In this document: in pieces, positions 26,654-37,192 of the stretch
How positions within the stretch are numbered: position 1 is the first letter of the stretch
Layout of the letters: each line of letters starts with the position of its first letter
Origin: Deltaproteobacteria bacterium
GTDB lineage: Bacteria; Desulfobacterota; Desulfobacteria; Desulfobacterales; SpSt-501
Direction of reading: 5' to 3'
DNA length: 49,946 bases
NCBI GenBank assembly: GCA_016219005.1
Contig: JACRCN010000042.1
Span: 1-49,946, forward strand
Notes under the pieces: generated by a model
Database searches by the model: none
The model's input: only the letters and a program-made list of their open reading frames with translations
Told to the model about the DNA's origin: nothing
Translations under genes and position numbers: made by a program

Positions 26654-26944
26654 ATGGCCCATAGCGATAAAAACCAGCTTACGTTCTATTTCCCGAATGC
26701 CCGGGTCCTGAGCAGCAGCGAGGTTGCGGCCCTACCGGATGACAAAAAGAAACCGGCCGAGGCGGCCGGCATAGGCGGAGTCTGGCTCGAGGTCCATTGC
26801 CCGGACGGCTCCTGTGTCGGCAAAGACGGTAAAGTTACCCTGCAGGCGGCCGGTGTGGCGGGCAAGGCGGACAAGGGCATCTGGCTAAACGTGTTCTGCC
26901 CCGAAGACAGTTGCTTATGGAAAGGCGGGACCGATCTGGTCTGA
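26654..26944 (+). CDS. Small protein with duplicated CPxxSC motif, 96 aa
   Basis: AAAGGAG precedes the ATG. Two halves repeat the same pattern: GVWLEVHCPDGSC and GIWLNVFCPEDSC, each with Trp, a hydrophobic strand and CPxxSC. The protein is soluble, with no signal peptide. The four Cys could bind a metal or be redox-active. It has its own strong promoter and terminator and precedes the molybdenum operon. I know no family; abundant expression is likely from its signals. Confidence 0.75.
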   Translation: MAHSDKNQLTFYFPNARVLSSSEVAALPDDKKKPAEAAGIGGVWLEVHCPDGSCVGKDGKVTLQAAGVAGKADKGIWLNVFCPEDSCLWKGGTDLV

Positions 26945-27127: not shown

Positions 27128-29212
27128 ATGGAAAAATCCGTCTACAGCATGTGTTTCATGTGTTCGATCCGCTGCCCGATCAAGGTCACGGTCAAGAACG
27201 GCCAGGTGACCTTTATCGAGGGCAACCCCAAGGTGGCCGGGATCGACGGCAGTCTGTGCCCGCGCGGCTCGGCTGGCATCTCTCTGCTCTACGACTCCCA
27301 GCGGCTGCAATCCCCCATGATCCGCACGGGCGAACGCGGCTCCGGTCAGTGGCGCAAGGCCACTTGGGACGAGGCGCTGGACTACATCGCCGACAAGCTC
27401 AAAGCCGTCATCCAAAAGCACGGCGGGCAGAGCGTGGCGCTGACCGAGCGGACCAACCTGTCCACCCACGTTAGCAAAACGCTGTTGAAAGCCATCGGCT
27501 CGCCCAACCATTTCACCCACGACGCCCTATGCAAGGGCTCGGTCAACACGGCCTGCCGCTCCCTTTTCGGATACACCGACGCCCAGATGGGTATCGACTA
27601 CAAGAACAGCAAGCACATCGTCATGTACGGCCGCAACCTTTTCGAGGCCATCGCGGTCAAAGAGGTCAATGGCCTTCTGGATGCGCTTGCGGCCGGCGCC
27701 AAGCTGACCTATATCGACCCGCGCGTTTCCATCACCGCCACCAAGGCTCACCGCTATTGGATGATCCGCCCCGGCACCGACCTCGCCCTGAATTACGCCC
27801 TGATCCACGTGATCCTCGAGGAGCGGCTGCATGACGCCGGGTACGTAGAGAAGTGGGTGCTCGGCCTGAACGAGCTGCAGGATTTCGTGCAGGCCTGCAC
27901 GCCCGAATGGGCTGAAAAGGAAACCGGCATTCCGGCCTCCGAAATCGTAGCCCTGGCACGCGAAATGAGCAAGGACAAGCCATCCGTCATTTTCCACTTC
28001 GGCTACCGCGGGGCCCATCACGCCAACGAGATTTACCTGCGCCGCTCCATCCTGATCCTGAACGTGCTCATGGGCAGTATCGAAGCCAAGGGCGGGATCT
28101 TTTTTAAGAAGGGGCCCGGCGAAGTCGGCGGCAAGCCGGCCCGCAAGCTGACCGAACAGAAATTCCCGGCCATCAAGGTGTCCCGGGCCGACAAGGTCGG
28201 CACCAAGGATTTCCCGCTGCCGGACCCCGATCACGGGGTCCCGCAAATGCTGCCGCAGGCCATCCTCAACGAGGACCCTTACCCGATCAAGGCGCTGTTC
28301 GTCTACCGGTTCGAGCCGCTGATGTCCATACCGGACAGCAACCTCACCAAGAAAGCGCTCGATAAGCTCGACCTCATCGTTACCGTCGACATCAACTACA
28401 GCGACATCGCCTGGTATTCGGACGTGATCCTACCCGAATCCATCTACCTTGAGCGCACCGACTGCGTCCAGCAGGCCAACGGCCAGAAACCGCAGATGTT
28501 CCTGCGGCGGCAGGCCGTACCGCCGCGCTACGACACCCGCGACTGGGCCGTCATCGCCAAGCAGATCGGGGAGCGGATCGGAATCGGCGAGTTCTTCCCC
28601 TACAAGGACAGCGAGGAGCTGGTCCGCTGGCAGCTCGCGGGCACGGGCTTCACCCTGGAGGACTTCGACAAATCCGGCTTCGTGGCCTACACCGACAAGC
28701 AGATCCTATGGGACCGCAAGGACGGTCTGAAGTTCAAGACCCCTTCCAAAAAAATCGAGCTGAAGTCCTCGTTGCTGGAAAATGCCGGCTTCCCATCGTT
28801 CCCGCCGTATGAGGCGGTCCCGAACTACAGGGGCAACCAGTTCCGGCTGATCACGGGCAGAAACGCGCTGCACACCCATGTGTCCACCCAGAACAACGCC
28901 TACCTGAGCGAGCTGATGCCGGAAAACGTACTGTGGATCAACTCCGAGCGTGCCGCGGCCCTGAGCATCAAGAACGGCGGCCTCGTGACGGTGGCCTCCA
29001 AAAACGGCTCCGGCCAGATCAAGGCGTTCGTGACCGATTTCATCCACCCCGATGCGGTTTTCATGCTGCACGGGTTCGGCCACCAGGCACAGCTCGCAGC
29101 CCGCTCTTACAACAAGGGCGTCTCGGACGCCATGCTGGAGGAGAGCATCACCGACAAGGTCGGCGGCAGCCCGGCCCTGCATGACACCATCGTAACCGTC
29201 CAAGCGGCATAA
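27128..29212 (+). CDS. Molybdopterin oxidoreductase, DMSO reductase family (cytoplasmic)
   Basis: The 694-residue protein has an N-terminal [4Fe-4S] site (C9, C12, C16 and C44 in LCPRG), then the Mo-bis-MGD domains. The probable Mo ligand is Cys135 in HDALCKGSVN. The Cys is not followed by the His of formate dehydrogenases, so a formate role is unlikely. The pattern is closer to thiosulfate/polysulfide reductases (PhsA/PsrA) and related enzymes. There is no Tat signal, so it stays in the cytoplasm, unlike classical PhsA/PsrA. Downstream genes supply electron-transfer subunits, including a NAD(P)H-type flavoprotein. The substrate is inferred only; other cytoplasmic Mo/W enzymes (acetylene-hydratase-like, transhydroxylase-like) share this cysteine type. 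Confidence 0.9.
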   Translation: MEKSVYSMCFMCSIRCPIKVTVKNGQVTFIEGNPKVAGIDGSLCPRGSAGISLLYDSQRLQSPMIRTGERGSGQWRKATWDEALDYIADKLKAVIQKHGGQSVALTERTNLSTHVSKTLLKAIGSPNHFTHDALCKGSVNTACRSLFGYTDAQMGIDYKNSKHIVMYGRNLFEAIAVKEVNGLLDALAAGAKLTYIDPRVSITATKAHRYWMIRPGTDLALNYALIHVILEERLHDAGYVEKWVLGLNELQDFVQACTPEWAEKETGIPASEIVALAREMSKDKPSVIFHFGYRGAHHANEIYLRRSILILNVLMGSIEAKGGIFFKKGPGEVGGKPARKLTEQKFPAIKVSRADKVGTKDFPLPDPDHGVPQMLPQAILNEDPYPIKALFVYRFEPLMSIPDSNLTKKALDKLDLIVTVDINYSDIAWYSDVILPESIYLERTDCVQQANGQKPQMFLRRQAVPPRYDTRDWAVIAKQIGERIGIGEFFPYKDSEELVRWQLAGTGFTLEDFDKSGFVAYTDKQILWDRKDGLKFKTPSKKIELKSSLLENAGFPSFPPYEAVPNYRGNQFRLITGRNALHTHVSTQNNAYLSELMPENVLWINSERAAALSIKNGGLVTVASKNGSGQIKAFVTDFIHPDAVFMLHGFGHQAQLAARSYNKGVSDAMLEESITDKVGGSPALHDTIVTVQAA

Positions 29213-29234
29213 CAGATTCGGAGGATCGATACGG

Positions 29235-29747
29235 ATGAGCCAGTACTACTTGTTTCAGGACACGAAAAACTGCATCGGGTGCCACTCCTGTGAAATCGCC
29301 TGCAAGAGCAACAAGACCCTGCCGGTCGGCCCCAAACCCTGCCAGGTGATTCACGTCGCGCCCAAAATGGTAAACGGGCTGCCCAGGGCCTCTTACGTGT
29401 TCATGCCCTGCTTCCATTGCGAAAACCCCTGGTGCGTCGCCGCCTGCCCCACCGGCGCCATGCGCAAACGGCCGCAGGACGGTATCGTCTACGTCGAGCA
29501 CAGCCTGTGCGTAGGCTGCAAGACCTGTGTGGCCGCCTGCCCGTGGGGCGCCCCCCAGTGGAACCCCGAAACCGGCAAGGTGGTCAAGTGCGACTACTGC
29601 AAGGACCGGGTCGACGCCGGGCTGAAGCCCGCCTGCGCAACGATTTGCACCACCCACTGCCTGCATTTCGGCAGGGTGGAGGACATGACCCAGATCCGCC
29701 GCGAACGCCATGCCAAGGTGGTCGCCAGCCTGGAAAACCAGATTTGA
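29235..29747 (+). CDS. Four-cluster [4Fe-4S] ferredoxin subunit (PsrB/DmsB type)
   Basis: The 170-residue protein has four Cys groups: CIGCHSCEIAC, CFHCENPWCVAAC, CVGCKTCVAAC and CDYCKDR...CATIC. This is the standard electron-transfer subunit of DMSO-reductase-family enzymes. GGAGGATCG precedes the ATG. It starts 22 bp after the catalytic gene and must wire it to the flavoprotein encoded next. No membrane anchor gene (PsrC/NrfD) is present in the operon, which supports a soluble complex. Confidence 0.94.
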   Translation: MSQYYLFQDTKNCIGCHSCEIACKSNKTLPVGPKPCQVIHVAPKMVNGLPRASYVFMPCFHCENPWCVAACPTGAMRKRPQDGIVYVEHSLCVGCKTCVAACPWGAPQWNPETGKVVKCDYCKDRVDAGLKPACATICTTHCLHFGRVEDMTQIRRERHAKVVASLENQI

Positions 29748-29810
29748 TATAACGTGTGGCCTTCCAGGGACAGCCGCGCGTTCTTTGACGTTACCCAAGG
29801 AAACGGATAC

Positions 29811-31967
29811 ATGCCCGACATCAAATGTCCGGTCAATCAGACGCTCTCCGGACTCCGAACGGCCATCGCGTCCGGACAGCTTCCCAATCCTCGCAGCCGG
29901 CGGATCGCAGAAGAGATCCTGGATCTGTTGACGGATGTCGCCTGGGGTCGGGCCGGCGGCGATCATCCGGCGGCCATCGCCGGCCTTGCGGATGAGCTCG
30001 CTTATGACGAGACCTCGCCGGGCGCCATGGCCACGGCCCGGTCGGTCCGGGATGCGCTCGGCGAGCACCGCGAGGTGTTCCAGAGCCACATCGACACCCA
30101 CAACTGTGCCACCGGCGACTGCGTGCGCCTGGTGCCGGCCCCCTGCCAGATGACCTGCCCGGCCGGGATCGACATCCCCACGTATGTGAACCTCATCGGC
30201 AGGGGGCACGATGCCGAGGCCATTGAAGTCATTCGCCGGGACAATCCCTTCCCGTGGGTGTGCGGGCTGGTGTGCACACGGCCCTGCGAAATCATGTGCG
30301 TGCGCGGCCGGGTGGACAAACCCATTTCCATCAAATTCCTCAAGGCCTTTGCCTCCGAGCGGGCGCTCTCCGACCACCATTACCGCAACCCGGCCAAGGA
30401 GCCGGACAAGGGCAAGCGTGTCGCCGTGGTCGGCGCCGGCCCCGGCGGAATGACGGCGGCGTATTACCTCGCGATAAAAGGCTATGGAGTCACCGTCTTC
30501 GAAGCCCTGCCGGTGGCGGGCGGGATGATGATGCTCGGCATCCCGCGCTACCGCCTGCCGCGGGAAGTCATCGACCGCGAGGCAGCCATGCTGGAGGAGT
30601 TGGGCGTCGAGTTCCGGTTCAACACCCGGTACGGCAAAAATATCACCCTGGACAGCCTCAAATCCGATGGATTCGAGGCTGTTTTCCTCGCCATCGGAGC
30701 CCACCAGTCCTTCAAACTCAACATCCCCGGCGAGGCAGACTTTCCTCAGGTCATCGAAGCAATCGACCTGCTGCGCCGGGTGGCCCTGGGCGATCGGCGA
30801 ATTCCGGGAAAGCACGCGGTCATCGTCGGCGGCGGCAACGTCGCCATCGACGCGGCCCGGACCTGCCTGCGGCTGGGATCCGAGGAGGTGACCATTGCCT
30901 ACCGCCGGACCCGGGCGGAGATGCCGGCCGACGTGGAGGAAGTGGAGCAGGCCGAGGACGAAGGTATTCACATGTCGTTTTTGACCATTCCCACGGCCGT
31001 CGCAGGAACGGACGGCCGGCTCAGCGGGCTGGCGTGCATCCGCGCCACGCTGATCAAGAAGAACGACAGCGAACGCCTGTTCCCGGTACCGGTGGAAGGC
31101 AGCGATTTCGTCATCGAGGCCGACACGGTCATCTCCGCCATCGGGCAGCGCATCGACTTAGAGTGCCTGAGCGATCTCAAGAAGCTCAAGTGGACCCGGC
31201 GCCAGACCATCCAGACCAACACCGTCAGCACGGAGACGTCGATCCCCGGGGTGTTCGCCGGCGGCGATGCCGTCACCGGCCCGGCCACCGTGGTGGAGGC
31301 CATCGGCGCAGGCAAGCGCGCCGCCGAGGCCATCGACCGCTTTCTTTCCGGGATCCCCCAGCCCAAAATGCCGCCGGTACCGGTGCGCCGCACGCGGGTG
31401 GAGTGGATGGAAGTCCCGGCCAGCACCAAGATGACCCTGCGGCGCCCGGAGATGCCGCTGCTCAACCTTGAACGTCGGCGCACCACCTTCCAGCAGGTGG
31501 AACTCGGCTACACGGAGAACGTCGCGCGGGAAGAAGCCCGCCGCTGCCTGCGCTGCGACATCTGCCTGCGCTGCGGCAAGTGCGTCGAGGTCTGCCGGGA
31601 CATGATGGGCATCAACGCGCTGGAGTTCGGTTTTCTCAACTTCGACCAGCCGGCGGCCACCGACTTCCGGGTGACCGCCGAGCGTTGCATCCTCTGCGGC
31701 GCCTGTGCCGCCAACTGCCCGAACCAGGCCATCCGGATCATCGACCGGGGCGACGAGCGCCTGCTGTCCTACTGCGGGACGATTCTGAACCGGCATAAGT
31801 TAGAACACTGCGAGGAGTGCGGCGCCGTTCTGGGGCCGCCGCGCTATCACGAGTTCCTGCGCAAACGTACCCAGGCCATCAGCCCGGCCGTCAACATCCT
31901 GAAGCTCTGCAGCGCCTGTACCCGCCGGCAGGCTGCCAGAATTCACGTGGACAACACCCCGGTCTAA
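29811..31967 (+). CDS. GltD/NfnB-like NAD(P)H flavoprotein with extra ferredoxin domains, 718 aa
   Basis: AAGGAA before the ATG at 29811 fixes the start; the 19 codons before it lack support. Order: an N-terminal helical part with HNCATGDC, the GltD-type [4Fe-4S] region (CQMTCPAG, CGLVCTRPCEIMC), FAD fold VAVVGAGPGGMTAAYYLA, NAD(P) fold HAVIVGGGNVAIDAARTC, the terminal FAD motif IPGVFAGGDAVTGPATVVEA, then two ferredoxin clusters (CLRCDICLRCGKCVEVC, CILCGACAANC) and a final CEECG...CSACTRR zinc/FeS-like site. It can pass electrons between NAD(P)H and the FeS chain. With the HoxU-like subunit it makes a soluble NAD(P)H-linked module. Confidence 0.92.
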   Translation: MPDIKCPVNQTLSGLRTAIASGQLPNPRSRRIAEEILDLLTDVAWGRAGGDHPAAIAGLADELAYDETSPGAMATARSVRDALGEHREVFQSHIDTHNCATGDCVRLVPAPCQMTCPAGIDIPTYVNLIGRGHDAEAIEVIRRDNPFPWVCGLVCTRPCEIMCVRGRVDKPISIKFLKAFASERALSDHHYRNPAKEPDKGKRVAVVGAGPGGMTAAYYLAIKGYGVTVFEALPVAGGMMMLGIPRYRLPREVIDREAAMLEELGVEFRFNTRYGKNITLDSLKSDGFEAVFLAIGAHQSFKLNIPGEADFPQVIEAIDLLRRVALGDRRIPGKHAVIVGGGNVAIDAARTCLRLGSEEVTIAYRRTRAEMPADVEEVEQAEDEGIHMSFLTIPTAVAGTDGRLSGLACIRATLIKKNDSERLFPVPVEGSDFVIEADTVISAIGQRIDLECLSDLKKLKWTRRQTIQTNTVSTETSIPGVFAGGDAVTGPATVVEAIGAGKRAAEAIDRFLSGIPQPKMPPVPVRRTRVEWMEVPASTKMTLRRPEMPLLNLERRRTTFQQVELGYTENVAREEARRCLRCDICLRCGKCVEVCRDMMGINALEFGFLNFDQPAATDFRVTAERCILCGACAANCPNQAIRIIDRGDERLLSYCGTILNRHKLEHCEECGAVLGPPRYHEFLRKRTQAISPAVNILKLCSACTRRQAARIHVDNTPV

Positions 31968-31995
31968 CACGGCCGGGTAGTCAAGGAGCATTGCC

Positions 31996-32205
31996 ATGGC
32001 TTTTCACAAAGGTCAGAAGGTGGTGATATTCCGGAAATCGGAGGATGAGGGCTGGGGCGAGCACATGAACCAGTACGTCGGGCTTCACGGTATCATCACC
32101 GACCCGGACACCACTAAAAACGACCCGGACGCCCTGATCGAAGTCAGCGTGGAGGGCAAGGGCACGCACCGGTTTCCGCAGGATTGCCTGCGGCTGCTCC
32201 ACTGA
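31996..32205 (+). CDS. Small hypothetical protein in the molybdenum operon, 69 aa
   Basis: CAAGGAG precedes the ATG, 28 bp after the flavoprotein. The 69-residue protein (MAFHKGQKVVIFRKSEDEG at its start, ending GTHRFPQDCLRLLH) looks like a small beta-barrel, SH3/KOW-like (GQKVVIF, LHGIITD, ALIEVSVEGKG). It may be an accessory or assembly subunit. The fold is a guess from the strand pattern. Confidence 0.75.
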   Translation: MAFHKGQKVVIFRKSEDEGWGEHMNQYVGLHGIITDPDTTKNDPDALIEVSVEGKGTHRFPQDCLRLLH

Positions 32206-32241
32206 CGCGTAATTTATTCTGAAGCAAAGGTTGCATCCGTC

Positions 32242-33003
32242 ATGATCATGATTCGAGTCAACGGCCTGGAGCTGCAGGCCACCGAAGGCGGGAACCTTCT
32301 GGAGGTGATGCGGGCGGCTGACATCCGCATCCCTGCGGTGTGTTTCCACCCCGCGCTGAAAAGCGCAACGGGTATTTGCCGCCTGTGCACCGTGGAGGTC
32401 GCCCTGCCTGGCAAGGCGCCGGCAGCCAAACGCGCCTGCCTGGTTAAAACGGTGAATGGCCTGGTGGTGCAGACGGAAAGCGTGGCGGTGCAGGCTGCAC
32501 GCGAAAAAGCCATGCGCTCGCTGTTAAAACAGGCTCCCCAGGCCGAGCGACTCATCCACCTGGCCCAGGAATTCGGCATCCGCATCGACCCCGCACCCGA
32601 CGGGTGCATCCGCTGCCTCCTGTGCGAGAGGGTTTGCAAGGAGGTTGTGGGTGCCGGGGCGCTCAAGGCGGGGAAACGCGACGGGCAACGTTTGATCGAG
32701 CCGGTGGAGGGCCGCTGCATCGGCTGCGGCACCTGCGCCAACATCTGCCCCACCCATGTCATCCGGATCACGGATGAGGAGAACGTGCGTACGATCTCCA
32801 TCCGCGGCGAAGTGATCGGCCGGCACCCTCTCGAAACCTGCGAAGGCTGCGGACGACGATTTGCCACGCCGAAGTTTCTTGAAGTCACCCATGAGCGCGC
32901 CGTCGACCACCACCCGGACGTGAAGGAGCATCACCGCTGGTGCCCGGAGTGTGCCAAGCGGCTTTCACCCCGCGTGTCCGGAACCCTGACCCGCCGCTAC
33001 TGA
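32242..33003 (+). CDS. HoxU/NuoG-N-like [2Fe-2S]/[4Fe-4S] protein
   Basis: The 253-residue protein starts with a plant-type ferredoxin fold (CFHPALKSATGICRLCTVEV...KRACLV, [2Fe-2S]), followed by two [4Fe-4S] clusters (CIRCLLCERVC and CIGCGTCANIC) and a C-terminal CEGCG...WCPEC site. It corresponds to the diaphorase small subunit of soluble hydrogenases or formate dehydrogenases. Two in-frame ATGs (32242, 32248) are possible. It closes the molybdenum operon. It suggests the complex can exchange electrons with NAD(H) or ferredoxin. Confidence 0.9.
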   Translation: MIMIRVNGLELQATEGGNLLEVMRAADIRIPAVCFHPALKSATGICRLCTVEVALPGKAPAAKRACLVKTVNGLVVQTESVAVQAAREKAMRSLLKQAPQAERLIHLAQEFGIRIDPAPDGCIRCLLCERVCKEVVGAGALKAGKRDGQRLIEPVEGRCIGCGTCANICPTHVIRITDEENVRTISIRGEVIGRHPLETCEGCGRRFATPKFLEVTHERAVDHHPDVKEHHRWCPECAKRLSPRVSGTLTRRY

Positions 33004-33340: not shown

Positions 33341-34009
33341 TCAACTGGTGAGGCGTGCTTTGATTTCCCAGTCTTCCACGGATCCACGATCCTCGACCTC
33401 CTCCCAGCCGCATACCATGGCCCGGGTGTGGGCGCCCAGACTGCGGCCGGTCGTGATCATATACAGGTGTACGATCAGGAACGAGAGGATCGCGAAGCCG
33501 CCCGCCAGATGGACGGCGGCCACTAACTTCAAGGAGACCCATCCGATCCCCCACGCATTCCAGGAGTTGTAGCTCCAGTAGACAAACCCGGTCAGCATTT
33601 GGACCGGCAGCAGAAATGCGGCCAGGCTCAGGTAAACCAGGCGCTGCAGGGGGTTGTGCTTGGCGTCCTTGCGTTTGGGGACCGGATGCGGCTCTCCGCG
33701 GAAAATTCCGTACATGTAATAGCGGACCACTTCGATCATCTTCCGGGTGGTCGGGGTGTACTGCCGCCATTCGCCGGTGGTGAAAATCCAGAAGACGAAA
33801 AAGGCGAAGGCAATGAGCCAGCCGATGCCGACGAAGTTGTGGATATTCACGGCCGTCTTGAAGCCGAACAGCGTGTACAGACCGTTGGCCTCGAAGCCGG
33901 TCACGAGCAATATTGCGATCAGCGCGCTCTGCAGCCAGTGCCAGAAGCGCTCGTAGCGGGAGTACAGGTAGATGTTCACCATTTTGCAGGTGGTGTCGTT
34001 CACGTTCAT
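33341..34009 (-). CDS. Membrane cytochrome b subunit (thiosulfate/Ni-Fe hydrogenase b-type)
   Basis: The 222-residue protein has four transmembrane helices with His ligands for two b hemes: FWHWLQSALIAILLVTGF, NIHNFVGIGWLIAFAFFV, VYLSLAAFLLPVQMLTGF and VHLAGGFAILSFLIVHLYM. It begins 3 bp after the octaheme gene stop, so translation is coupled. It would carry electrons between the quinone pool and the periplasmic octaheme cytochrome. Downstream no further gene of the unit is seen. Confidence 0.9.
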   Translation of the reverse strand: MNVNDTTCKMVNIYLYSRYERFWHWLQSALIAILLVTGFEANGLYTLFGFKTAVNIHNFVGIGWLIAFAFFVFWIFTTGEWRQYTPTTRKMIEVVRYYMYGIFRGEPHPVPKRKDAKHNPLQRLVYLSLAAFLLPVQMLTGFVYWSYNSWNAWGIGWVSLKLVAAVHLAGGFAILSFLIVHLYMITTGRSLGAHTRAMVCGWEEVEDRGSVEDWEIKARLTS

Positions 34010-34012
34010 GGA

Positions 34013-35659
34013 TCAACCCTCCTTCCTGCGGCTGCTGACCGCGCGGCCGAGCGCATGCAGCAGGACGCCTGCGAACGAGCCTATCACCGCCGCCCATCCC
34101 AGGATTTCGATGACCTTGTTGCCGTCGCGGCCCGGCATATAGACGCCCTTGATGTTCGCCATGCGGCCGTTGTTCCGGGTGTGGCACTCGTTGCAGCTGA
34201 TCGAATTTTCCTTCGGCGCCACCATGTGTGTCGTCGGGAACACGTAACTGGTTTCGACGAAATCAAACTGGCCGCTGTAGGGCAGCCCGGCCTTCTTCAT
34301 GCCGCTTTCAAAGGCGAGTTGCCAGTCGTATTTCGCCCAGTAGGCGTTGGAGTCCGGCGGCCCGAAGAGGTGCGGTACGAGCATGGTCTTGTTGACCGTG
34401 TCGTAGGGCTGCTTGCCGGTGTGGACCTTGAATGGTGAGATCCGGGCATTGGGATCGTCGGGGCGGCCCACCGGCCAGTTGAGCGCCACGGGCTTGGTGG
34501 GATCGATCGGATCCTTGAGCGAGACCGCGTCAATGGTGCCGCTGTACCAGGAATACTGCGGCTTGACGTTTTTCTCCCAGGTGAAGTTGCCCTTCTGGGT
34601 GTCGTACACCGGTGTACCCAGCGGGCCCTTTTCCTTGTAAGGCTTGCCGTCCTTCTTCTTGCCGGCCGTGGACCAGTCCCAACGCATCTTGGTGGGCAGC
34701 ACACGGGCGAACTCGGGAATGTGGCAGGTCTGGCAGGCGACCTTGTCGGTGTGGTCGTTGGCCTTCACCCCGTGCCTGTGCGGTGTGGCGGTGTGGCAGG
34801 ACTCGCAGGTGATCCGCGGCGTCAGGTCGTCCTGGGCCAGGGTCTTGCGCTCCTTGGCGGCCGGGGTCGAGTAGATGCGGCCGGCCACCTGGTGCGCGGT
34901 CGTCGTGTGGCAGCGCGTGCAGTCGAAATTCTTACCGTCGACCCCCATGTGGACGTCCAACGCTTTGTTCGGCTTGGTCATTGAGGAGTCCAGGTCCCCG
35001 TGTTTCACCATGTCGCCCCCGCCGCCGTAAAAGTGGCAAATCCCGCAGTTCTCGCGAGTCGGGCGCCCCACGCTCTGAGCCACCTTTTGCCAGTCCGGCG
35101 GCAGGTACTGCAGGCCGTCGCCCGGGAACACCGTCGGTTCTTTGGCCGGGTTGCCCGCACCGGCGGGGTGTTTCTTGTAAGTGCCGGTCTGCTCGTGGCA
35201 CACTAGACAATCCACTTTGCTCGCATCCGTGAAATCGAAAGTCTTGTCCTTCCAACCGTAGCCGATGTGGCAGGAGGTGCAGCGCGGCTCGTTTCCGTGG
35301 AGGCTGACGCAGTAGTTGTTCACGGTGAGGGCGCCCTTACCCATGGGTTTGTCCTTGGGGGAGGCTGGGTCGACCCAGGTCCAGTGAATGGTTTTGTGGA
35401 TCTGGGTGGCCGCTTCCGAGTGGCAGGTCAGGCAAGCCTTGGTCACCTCCGGCCCGGAGGTGAAGGGCTGTTTGAGGATCTCGTGCTTGGAATGGTCGGT
35501 CGTGATCCAGCGTTTGGCCCCTTTGATCGCCTGCTGGGCCATTTCGCGCCCCGGGGCCGATTCCCCGTCCGCCGGCGCGGGGTTCGCGAAGGCCTGGGGG
35601 GTCATCGCCAGCACCCACCACGCGAGTAACAGGCCACATCGAGTCTTCATGGTGTTCAT
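34013..35659 (-). CDS. Octaheme c-type cytochrome, tetrathionate reductase family
   Basis: The 548-residue protein has a signal peptide (LLLAWWVLAMTPQAFA), eight CxxCH heme sites (CLTCH, CTSCH, CLVCH, CGICH, CTRCH, CESCH, CQTCH, CNECH) and a C-terminal transmembrane helix (EILGWAAVIGSFAGVLLHAL). The NNYCVSLHGNEPRCTSCH pattern is typical of the OTR family of Shewanella-type octahemes. In the characterised OTR one heme is Lys-ligated and reduces tetrathionate, and also nitrite and hydroxylamine in vitro; physiological substrate here is inferred. GGAGG precedes the ATG. Sigma-54 promoter 35716-35732. Confidence 0.93.
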   Translation of the reverse strand: MNTMKTRCGLLLAWWVLAMTPQAFANPAPADGESAPGREMAQQAIKGAKRWITTDHSKHEILKQPFTSGPEVTKACLTCHSEAATQIHKTIHWTWVDPASPKDKPMGKGALTVNNYCVSLHGNEPRCTSCHIGYGWKDKTFDFTDASKVDCLVCHEQTGTYKKHPAGAGNPAKEPTVFPGDGLQYLPPDWQKVAQSVGRPTRENCGICHFYGGGGDMVKHGDLDSSMTKPNKALDVHMGVDGKNFDCTRCHTTTAHQVAGRIYSTPAAKERKTLAQDDLTPRITCESCHTATPHRHGVKANDHTDKVACQTCHIPEFARVLPTKMRWDWSTAGKKKDGKPYKEKGPLGTPVYDTQKGNFTWEKNVKPQYSWYSGTIDAVSLKDPIDPTKPVALNWPVGRPDDPNARISPFKVHTGKQPYDTVNKTMLVPHLFGPPDSNAYWAKYDWQLAFESGMKKAGLPYSGQFDFVETSYVFPTTHMVAPKENSISCNECHTRNNGRMANIKGVYMPGRDGNKVIEILGWAAVIGSFAGVLLHALGRAVSSRRKEG

Positions 35660-35715
35660 TGAGCCTCCAAGTTACGGGTTCGGCTTTAGCGAGAAGGGAA
35701 TTCGCGAAGCGGTAA

Positions 35716-35732
35716 AAGCAAGTATTGTGCCT
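35716..35732 (-). promoter_or_regulatory. Sigma-54 promoter of the octaheme-cytochrome b operon
   Basis: The minus strand reads AGGCAC-AATAC-TTGCTT: GG (35730-35731) and GC (35718-35719) are exactly 10 bp apart, as in TGGCAC-N5-TTGC. The start site would be about 35706, giving a 47 nt leader. A perfect palindrome TGCCGCGGCA (35746-35755) lies just upstream, and a half site TGTTCG (minus strand, 35812-35817) about 85 bp upstream of -24. Confidence 0.7.
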
Positions 35733-35803
35733 GGCGCGTTTTCCATGCCGCGGCAACGGGGCTCGGGGACATGAGGACGAGACAAGAAAGCTTCTGTTTG
35801 CAG

Positions 35804-37192
35804 CTATCGCGCGAACACTTTAGGGTCGATCCCGAAGCGTTTGATTTGGCTCCACACGCTCGTACGCGAGATGCCGAGGATCTTCGCCGTTTCGGACTGG
35901 TTGCCGTGGCTTTGCCGCAACGCGTTGGTCAGGCGCTGCTTCTTGACATCCTCGATCTTCTCCGACGACAGCTCATGGGGGCGCGCCTGGGCCTTGGGCC
36001 TCAGGATGTGCTGGGGGAAGTGGTGGGGTTCGATGACCGCACCGGAGCAGGACACAAACGCGTATTCAAAGGCGCTGCGGAGCTCCCGCACATTTCCGGG
36101 CCATGGGCAGGAGCTCAACAGCTCCAAAGCCGAATTGGAGATTCCATTAATCGGCTTCTCGCTCTTGAGACGGACGCGGCGGAAAAAGGAGTCCGCCAGG
36201 AGGGGGATGTCTTCAAGTCGACGGCGCAGAGGGGGTACCCAGATAGGGATGACGTTGATGCGGTAAAACAGGTCCTCCCGGAAGGCGCCGCGGCCGACCA
36301 GGTCATGCAGTTGTCGGTTCGTCGCGGTGATGATTCGCACGTCAACCGGAATCGCGCGTTGGTCCCCGACGCGCTCGATCACCTTTTCCTCAAGCACGCG
36401 CAGCAGCTTGATTTGCGTTGACAGCGGCAGGTCCCCGATCTCGTCCAAAAAGATATCGCCGGTGTGGGCGGCCTCGAATCGCCCCTCGCGTTCGCGAAAA
36501 GCGCCCGTGAACGCCCCTTTCACGTGGCCGAAGAGTTCGCTTTCGAGCAGCGATTCGTTCAAGGCTGCGCAGTTGACCTTGATGAACGGGCCGCCTCGCC
36601 GCAGCCCCTCCTCGTGAATGGCCTTGGAGACCATCTCCTTGCCGGTCCCGCTCTCGCCGTAAACGATCACCGGGGCATCCGAACGGGCGGCATTGATGAT
36701 CAGGTCAAAAAGCTTTTGCATCGCCGCCGAGCGTCCGATCATGCCGTGGAAGCTGTCTTCGGCTGCCAGCTCGCGGCGGTAGTTTTCGATCTGGGTTTCC
36801 TTTTCGATCAGGTCGGTGATGTCGGTCATGGTCTCGACCGCTCCGGTCACCTGTCCCCGGCCGTCTCTCAATACCGAGGCGTTCTTGACGATGTTGATGA
36901 CGCGCCCGTCCTTGTGCACCAGCGCGCACTTCTGCTTGCGCAGCTGCCCCTTGTCGAACATGGAGCAGCAGTAGCACTGCTTGTCCTTCCGGGCGATTTC
37001 GCAGGAAGAGCAGTTCAGGATCGTGCAAGGTTTGCCGAGGATCTCCTCTTTCGTGTAGCCCGTGATTTCTTCGAAAGCACGATTCACTGACAAGATCAGG
37101 CCCTCGGGGTCCACCAGCATCACCCCGTCCTGAATCGTGTCGACGACTTCTTTCCAGTATCGGTTGGTTTCCGGGTTTGTCAATTTTTGCAT
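35804..37192 (-). CDS. Sigma-54-dependent activator with Cys-rich PAS domain
   Basis: The 462-residue protein has an N-terminal PAS domain (DTIQDGVMLVDPEGLILSVN...) carrying seven Cys between residues 56 and 89 (CTILNCSSC, CYCC, KC); then a central AAA+ domain with Walker A GESGTGKE, the sigma-54 contact loop GAFTGA, Walker B IFLDEIGDLP, and a C-terminal Fis-type helix-turn-helix (SETAKILGISRTSVWSQIKR). The Cys cluster could sense redox state, a metal or a reactive sulfur compound. It sits between two sigma-54 promoters and is the probable activator of both. Confidence 0.93.
   Translation of the reverse strand: MQKLTNPETNRYWKEVVDTIQDGVMLVDPEGLILSVNRAFEEITGYTKEEILGKPCTILNCSSCEIARKDKQCYCCSMFDKGQLRKQKCALVHKDGRVINIVKNASVLRDGRGQVTGAVETMTDITDLIEKETQIENYRRELAAEDSFHGMIGRSAAMQKLFDLIINAARSDAPVIVYGESGTGKEMVSKAIHEEGLRRGGPFIKVNCAALNESLLESELFGHVKGAFTGAFREREGRFEAAHTGDIFLDEIGDLPLSTQIKLLRVLEEKVIERVGDQRAIPVDVRIITATNRQLHDLVGRGAFREDLFYRINVIPIWVPPLRRRLEDIPLLADSFFRRVRLKSEKPINGISNSALELLSSCPWPGNVRELRSAFEYAFVSCSGAVIEPHHFPQHILRPKAQARPHELSSEKIEDVKKQRLTNALRQSHGNQSETAKILGISRTSVWSQIKRFGIDPKVFAR

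Follow-up and report, generated by a model that had tools for sequence, protein, structure and literature searches.

Five consecutive genes on the + strand (positions 27128-33003) of a 49,946-nucleotide stretch of a Deltaproteobacteria genome (assembly GCA_016219005.1, contig JACRCN010000042.1; the whole stretch is called the window here) may together encode a soluble cytoplasmic oxidoreductase that couples reduced nicotinamide adenine dinucleotide phosphate (NADPH) to thiosulfate, a reading to which we give about an even chance of being right. Its observed basis is the gene content of the operon, the lack of a twin-arginine translocation (Tat) signal, the kinship of the catalytic subunit with PhsA and PsrA, a flavoprotein whose sequence marks it as NADP(H)-type and the co-occurrence of the operon with dsrA. 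The host genome amounts to 5.24 Mb at 98.5% completeness and carries the operon on its contig 2. Reading of the open reading frames (ORFs) together with Pfam and NCBIfam scans gave the following genes:

27128-29212, + strand: catalytic subunit, PhsA/PsrA-like molybdenum or tungsten (Mo/W) bis(pyranopterin guanine dinucleotide) oxidoreductase, 694 amino acids (aa); Pfam/NCBIfam molybdopterin oxidoreductase and Fe4S4 domain
29235-29747, + strand: PhsB/DmsB-like ferredoxin subunit, 170 aa, with 18 Cys; Pfam/NCBIfam
29754-31967, + strand: GltD-like iron-sulfur flavoprotein, 737 aa as an ORF from GTG; likely start ATG 29811
31996-32205, + strand: small conserved accessory protein, 69 aa; match to a protein of a relative's operon
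32242-33003, + strand: HoxU/NuoG-N-like protein, 253 aa; Pfam/NCBIfam

The original prediction, made from the sequence alone, had placed four of these ORFs correctly and had overlooked the fifth, the 69-aa gene between those of the flavoprotein and the HoxU-like protein. It had also described a PhsA/PsrA-like catalytic subunit with a Cys ligand and not of the formate type, lacking both a Tat signal and a membrane subunit and joined to a four-cluster ferredoxin, a GltD-like flavoprotein with two additional ferredoxin clusters and a HoxU-like protein, and in all these respects the analysis agrees with it.

By profile, sequence and fold alike, the catalytic subunit falls with PhsA and PsrA. Among NCBIfam models it scores best with thiosulfate reductase PhsA (620 bits; the next family has 258), its best Protein Data Bank sequence is the Thermus polysulfide reductase PsrA (382 bits; next 185), and its predicted structure, with a predicted local distance difference test (pLDDT) score of 90.2, has PsrA as the closest fold (Z 43.4, 2.1 Å over 678 residues; next 36.7), which Foldseek also puts first. 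Residue C135, invariant in 26 of 26 alignment rows, is aligned to a Cys that we take to be the metal ligand of PsrA, and it is presumed from this alignment to be the ligand here as well; a single [4Fe-4S] cluster is accounted for by C9, C12, C16 and C44. Two features of PhsABC and PsrABC, a Cys at the ligand position and a PsrA-type catalytic fold, are thus present. The formate dehydrogenase model reached only 258 of 666 bits, and the protein stands apart from E. coli FdhF in both of the trees described below. Scores, tree and fold likewise led us to discard formate dehydrogenase, dimethyl sulfoxide (DMSO) reductase, NapA and acetylene hydratase as identities, and tetrathionate reductase was rejected with a TtrA score of just 61 bits against a cut-off of 1750.

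The enzyme appears to be cytoplasmic. The catalytic subunit is too short at its N-terminus for a Tat signal, its first cluster Cys being residue 9, and for the window this absence is firm because an in-frame stop lies four codons 5' of the ATG and GGAGG just upstream of it. None of the five operon genes encodes a membrane subunit of the NrfD/PhsC type. We considered the nearby cytochrome b (33341-34009) and octaheme cytochrome genes as partners and rejected them, as they lie on the opposite strand with a sigma-54 regulator of their own; the best match of the cytochrome b, to a PhsC model, is weak (104 of 204 bits), and the pair was not found beside the operon in the loci of 40 relatives, a set in which operon counts are biased because the loci were picked by HoxU score.

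A wider comparison, with Tat signals recognised by the twin-arginine pattern and membrane spans by hydropathy count, covered 22 loci, 20 fetched for the purpose and two from the same genome. Seven of them bear Tat signals, each with a catalytic subunit no more than 37% identical to that of the window, and in six of these seven an adjacent protein has 8-9 predicted membrane spans; the other 15 are without Tat. When 108 catalytic genes were read back to the previous stop, seven showed an RR pair, each at most 13 residues from the first cluster Cys and therefore too close to it to be a Tat signal. The phylogeny that the original prediction had proposed as a check points the same way: 35 sequences without Tat form one group, with the Tat-bearing PhsA and PsrA proteins on the other side (Shimodaira-Hasegawa-like approximate likelihood ratio test, SH-aLRT, 99) and with FdhF, DmsA and NapA outside the PhsA/PsrA groups. 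That first tree had long outgroup branches, and in a second one, from which NapA, DmsA and the long row L235 had been removed, the Tat-less group kept an SH-aLRT of 98 with a bootstrap of only 70. The group has two parts, namely the orthologues of the window's gene (57-81% identity among the best 80 of 547 confirmed) and a second type (about 39-52%), whose catalytic gene stands in for the orthologue in some otherwise similar operons.

The proteins encoded with the catalytic subunit are rich in redox cofactor sites. The 18 Cys of the ferredoxin subunit are enough for four [4Fe-4S] clusters. The HoxU-like protein has Cys for one [2Fe-2S] cluster (C34, C46, C49, C66) and two [4Fe-4S] clusters (C122-132 and C159-169) and ends in a CxxC...CxxC tail. 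In the flavoprotein, a helical N-terminal region is followed by an N-terminal iron-sulfur domain, a region for flavin adenine dinucleotide (FAD) and NADP(H), a C-terminal two-cluster ferredoxin domain and again a CxxC...CxxC tail. Its translation probably begins at ATG 29811 rather than GTG 29754, because most of the 23 other alignment rows begin there, AAGGAA lies just 5' of this ATG, and residues 1-21 are modelled at pLDDT <50. In DsrL-2 a YRR motif marks the use of NADP(H) (PMC7596348), and since the corresponding motif (Y383-R384-R385) is invariant in 24 of 24 rows, an NADP(H)-type flavoprotein is well supported by the sequence.

The flavoprotein model (pLDDT 80.1) has the large subunits of NfnABC and StnABC, two bifurcating transhydrogenases, as its closest folds (Z 38.2-35.8), ahead of NfnB, GltD and dihydropyrimidine dehydrogenase; thioredoxin reductase rows in a VIA-align comparison were taken to reflect shared Rossmann folds only. 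By sequence, the NfnABC subunit 9bov_A matches HoxU at 4-95, then the flavoprotein at 102-570 and then a ferredoxin part at 611-670, so that here the NADP(H)-binding subunit of Nfn-type Bfu enzymes seems to be divided between two proteins, the HoxU-like one and the flavoprotein. We further read the helical N-terminal region of the flavoprotein as a possible degenerate NuoF C-terminus, because the flavoprotein occurs as a fusion with a NuoF-like part (1131 aa) at loci such as L163 and that of Desulfofundulus australicus retains Cys that by eye resemble the NuoF C-terminal cluster. An FNR-like NfnA was found neither among the operon proteins nor among the neighbours tested.

The original prediction had called this combination of genes unusual, which as to rarity is wrong, for the operon is conserved across sulfate-reducer lineages of two phyla. 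The best 80 of the 547 confirmed orthologues, many from draft metagenome-assembled genomes and some from close kin, include those of Desulfosarcina widdelii, Desulfoferrobacter, Desulfacinum, Desulfobacula, Desulfotignum, Desulfobacca and Desulfonema magnum, and, in Bacillota, of Desulfofundulus australicus and D. thermobenzoicus. The lineages carrying the orthologue are sulfate reducers. Among the 45 of these 80 loci with at least 3.5 kb of sequence before and 7 kb after the gene, the flavoprotein is present in 43, the ferredoxin subunit in 42, HoxU in 25 and a relative of the 69-aa protein in 32, and a Tat signal in none. The small protein matches a conserved counterpart in the same operon of a relative (62% identity over 68 aa, E 1e-29), and a Pfam scan of the counterpart in one relative gave no match. 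That the operon is no chance arrangement also follows from the recurrence of its parts: near full-length flavoprotein orthologues at 63% identity or more occur in 18 of 58 genomes of the relatives search, the host included (partial or broken in two), and HoxU homologues at E <= 1e-45 in 56 of 192, again counting the host.

Two further patterns bear on the substrate. Among 394 genomes of the phylum, each at least 90% complete, the orthologue was seen in at least 39 (36 full-length at 59% identity or more; partial in G569, G009 and G509 at 71% or more), and dsrA is present in all 39 (E 1e-159 or lower) compared with 161 of the 355 others, with a Fisher p of 5e-13 that overstates the strength of the association because genome kinship was left uncorrected. 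In the host genome the best dsrA match is on contig 47. A TauE/SafE permease, detected by BLAST with two representatives matching PF01925, lies within 10 kb in 32 of the 45 well-flanked loci. The family, the dsrA co-occurrence and these permease neighbours in relatives together favour a sulfur substrate. The original prediction of a sulfur compound coupled to NAD(P)H therefore holds up for the NAD(P)H module, which the YRR motif narrows to NADP(H), and is favoured for sulfur.

We infer the formation of a complex, the direction of the reaction, thiosulfate as the substrate and the electron route between subunits. NADPH would dock on the GltD-like flavoprotein and pass hydride to FAD, from which electrons would move singly by way of the flavoprotein clusters, the HoxU-like protein and the ferredoxin with its four clusters. 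They would thus reach the PhsA-like subunit, at whose Mo/W centre thiosulfate would be split into sulfite and sulfide. Sulfite would then be removed by DsrAB or, in disproportionation, by a reversed adenosine phosphosulfate (APS) reductase and Sat, and the TauE/SafE permease might, to guess from its family, import thiosulfate or transport sulfite. The couple of thiosulfate with sulfite and sulfide has a standard potential of about -402 mV, lower than the potential of NADPH in cells, which is about -370 mV. With thiosulfate and sulfide at 1 mM and sulfite at 1 uM, however, the couple would by our calculation lie about 178 mV higher, at about -224 mV. NADPH would thus be strong enough, and neither a membrane potential nor PhsC would be needed, because sulfite is kept low via DsrAB.

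The reading as a thiosulfate reductase is also supported by comparisons within single genomes. In D. thermobenzoicus no other PhsA match comes near the orthologue (532 bits; next 224), and the same holds for D. australicus (531; next 203), Peptococcaceae BRH_c8a and Desulfacinum, the orthologues of all four scoring about 510-530 bits and the next matches 203-224. Thiosulfate disproportionation supports growth of D. thermobenzoicus (PMC11206085), and the same source names a phsA(psrA) homologue for D. thermobenzoicus subsp. thermosyntrophicus and for D. salinus, which we infer to be the orthologous gene here.

Several observations weigh against an NADPH-dependent thiosulfate reductase. The catalytic subunit, at 620 bits, misses the NCBIfam PhsA cut-off of 694 bits, and a second PhsA-like gene scores close behind the orthologue in the host itself (522/470), in Desulfosarcina (524/423) and in Desulfoferrobacter (506/428), and further below it in Desulfonema (489/318). 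The PsrA/PhsA lineage also includes selenite and polysulfide reductases (PMC7331816), PhsA abundance was low during thiosulfate disproportionation by Desulfolithobacter (PMC9751629), and our trees were built without the PhsA proteins of D. alaskensis and Oceanidesulfovibrio. No TauE/SafE gene lies beside the operon in the host genome, where a 56% homologue of one of the two kinds sits on another contig and the other kind matches the same gene at 29%. Among the matches listed, 161 of the 200 dsrA-bearing genomes lack the orthologue, and a Desulfococcus-like genome (G016) has the electron module without an orthologous catalytic gene beside it. In Desulfonema magnum (locus L176, 10001-14060), conversely, the catalytic and ferredoxin genes are followed by an RnfC-like protein (by eye) that replaces GltD and HoxU. 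Module and catalytic pair are thus exchangeable, and their pairing is common and not obligatory.

As mentioned above, the substrate could also be another sulfur compound. The same complex might reduce polysulfide or persulfide, or a cytoplasmic polythionate such as trithionate or tetrathionate, with NADPH to sulfide or thiosulfate, which we regard as unlikely. The closest solved relative is indeed the polysulfide reductase PsrA, the polysulfide and polythionate couples lie above NADPH so that the reaction would proceed unaided, and DsrAB in vitro forms trithionate and thiosulfate as by-products. On the other hand, the orthologue is the outstanding PhsA match in an organism that disproportionates thiosulfate, D. 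thermobenzoicus (PMC11206085), and the match to TtrA is very weak. The reading to which we give the least credence has the enzyme run oxidatively, for example from sulfide and sulfite to NADPH, or act on a selenium or arsenic oxyanion or an organic substrate. Mo enzymes of the PsrA family are reversible in principle, and regulators and permeases are no proof of a substrate. The selenite reductase SrrA belongs to the PsrA lineage (PMC7331816), whereas the presence of dsrA in 39 of 39 genomes and the TauE/SafE neighbours point to sulfur chemistry, and the tree sets the catalytic subunit apart from FdhF, DmsA and NapA.

A different question is whether the electrons come from NADPH alone. The original prediction had raised electron bifurcation at the flavin, which is not supported for the GltD-type flavin because the operon holds neither NfnA nor NuoE and NuoF; in the window there is no gene for the latter two, with best tblastn hits at E 0.005 and 0.004 for NuoF and NuoE of sister operons. 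For Nfn-Bfu enzymes, moreover, the prediction is that the GltD-type FAD serves NADP and that bifurcation takes place at another site (PMC9304861). A confurcating or bifurcating enzyme, in which an NADPH arm and ferredoxin (or NuoEF encoded elsewhere) would jointly supply thiosulfate with electrons of low potential, and which in reverse would reduce ferredoxin, therefore seems very unlikely for the window. What speaks for it is that HoxU and GltD match parts of the NfnABC A subunit and that sister operons have NuoE and NuoF beside the catalytic genes, as at L087, L090, L092 (same locus as L112), L101, L106, L109, L122 and L127; L084 has such an operon too, in a sequence that ends before the catalytic genes, and most NuoEF-bearing sister operons contain an extra HoxU. 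As in Bfu enzymes, the Cys of the C-terminal ferredoxin domain of the sister NuoF are kept (8 of 8 rows, 7 distinct loci). Its N-terminal region, however, has only three conserved Cys where four are usual, and no NuoF homologue elsewhere in the host genome exceeds 60% identity to the sister-operon NuoF, whose own relatives reach at least 73%. The NuoE/NuoF sister operons are thus candidate Bfu-type thiosulfate reductases. We tentatively suggest, while thinking it less probable than not, that a Bfu/Nfn-type module is the missing wiring of PhsAB without PhsC, with a confurcating 'Phs-Bfu' form that would use ferredoxin and NAD(P)H together where NuoEF is present, and a stripped NADPH version in the window. 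Among the Bfu functionalities described in the excerpts of PMC9304861 there is no thiosulfate reductase.

Our preferred NADPH:thiosulfate oxidoreductase can be set against several known systems. It shares with PhsABC and PsrABC the catalytic fold, the Cys at the ligand position, the single [4Fe-4S] in A and the four-cluster B, but has no Tat signal or C subunit, and an NADPH flavoprotein takes the place of the quinol link. PhsAB without PhsC has been named in sulfate reducers and disproportionators (PMC9751629, PMC4046663, PMC4215793) and is probably the same kind of catalytic pair; the excerpts of these papers name no electron donor module, whereas here it is encoded in the operon. According to PMC9751629, no functional analysis of PhsAB exists and C is considered essential. 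E. coli formed more H2S from thiosulfate with the PhsA of another sulfate reducer, Oceanidesulfovibrio marinus (PMC10989961), and phsAB mutants of D. alaskensis were slightly unfit on thiosulfate, with mild phenotypes (PMC4215793). In the excerpts returned by our literature search, neither a PhsA-GltD-HoxU operon nor a link of PhsAB to a GltD/HoxU module is recognised. The NuoG-N, GltD and ferredoxin parts of the large NADP(H)-binding subunit of NfnABC and StnABC match HoxU and the flavoprotein, which here are two proteins, have no NuoEF core in the operon and are encoded with a PhsA-like enzyme. DsrL-2, the NADPH partner of DsrAB, resembles the flavoprotein in its GltD-like build, C-terminal ferredoxin, YRR motif and place in sulfur metabolism (PMC7596348), but the window flavoprotein is encoded with a molybdoenzyme and dsrA is on another contig. 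The MOLY cluster (MolyABC) of sulfur disproportionators in Desulfobacterota likewise has A and B subunits related to PhsA; its MolyAB is said to be extracellular and to come with a TorD-like chaperone (PMC12998232), whereas the operon here has no Tat signal and no chaperone gene.

Other genes nearby deserve mention. A 96-aa protein with two CPxxSC motifs and no Pfam or NCBIfam match is encoded just before the operon (26654-26944, + strand), and its relatives occur near the operon at L063, L099 and L160. At L148, L162, L163, L167, L169 and L171, the operon is adjoined by a PhnD-like lipoprotein (cluster d1, by eye), a histidine kinase and a sigma-54 regulator, sets that we take to be similar to thiosulfate or tetrathionate sensors. 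On the - strand of the window, 33341-37192 encodes in a row a cytochrome b561-like protein, an octaheme cytochrome of the 'tetrathionate reductase family' (TIGR04315, 631 bits) and a PAS sigma-54 activator. Between the activator and octaheme genes there is a sigma-54-like site, at 35717-35732 and with one mismatch, although such sites are no commoner than chance. None was found upstream of the operon; with 15 matches in the window against 23.6 in shuffles, the pattern is uninformative by number, and its count among relatives, 9 of 108 compared with 28 of 1200 random stretches, is too weak for use. Elsewhere in the host genome (L215; contig 85, 44000-58000), four proteins that by eye are antiporter/NuoL-M-N-like, with 10-13 predicted membrane spans, are directly followed by a PhsA-like molybdoenzyme, in which Leu stands where the Cys ligand aligns, and by its ferredoxin subunit, possibly an ion-pumping molybdoenzyme complex. 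On contig 52 (L214) a PhsA-like gene of the second type directly precedes a formate-dehydrogenase-like gene that starts NuoG-N-like and contains an in-frame TGA.

Both the reduction and the disproportionation of thiosulfate are important in the marine sulfur cycle. PhsAB without PhsC has been published before, and what the operon makes testable is its electron donor: tying PhsAB to an NADPH flavoprotein names a specific donor and sets the reaction in the cytoplasm together with DsrAB. If this is true, a membrane potential would be unnecessary, the electron supply of thiosulfate reductases that lack PhsC would be explained, and the Nfn/Bfu electron module would be extended to sulfur chemistry.

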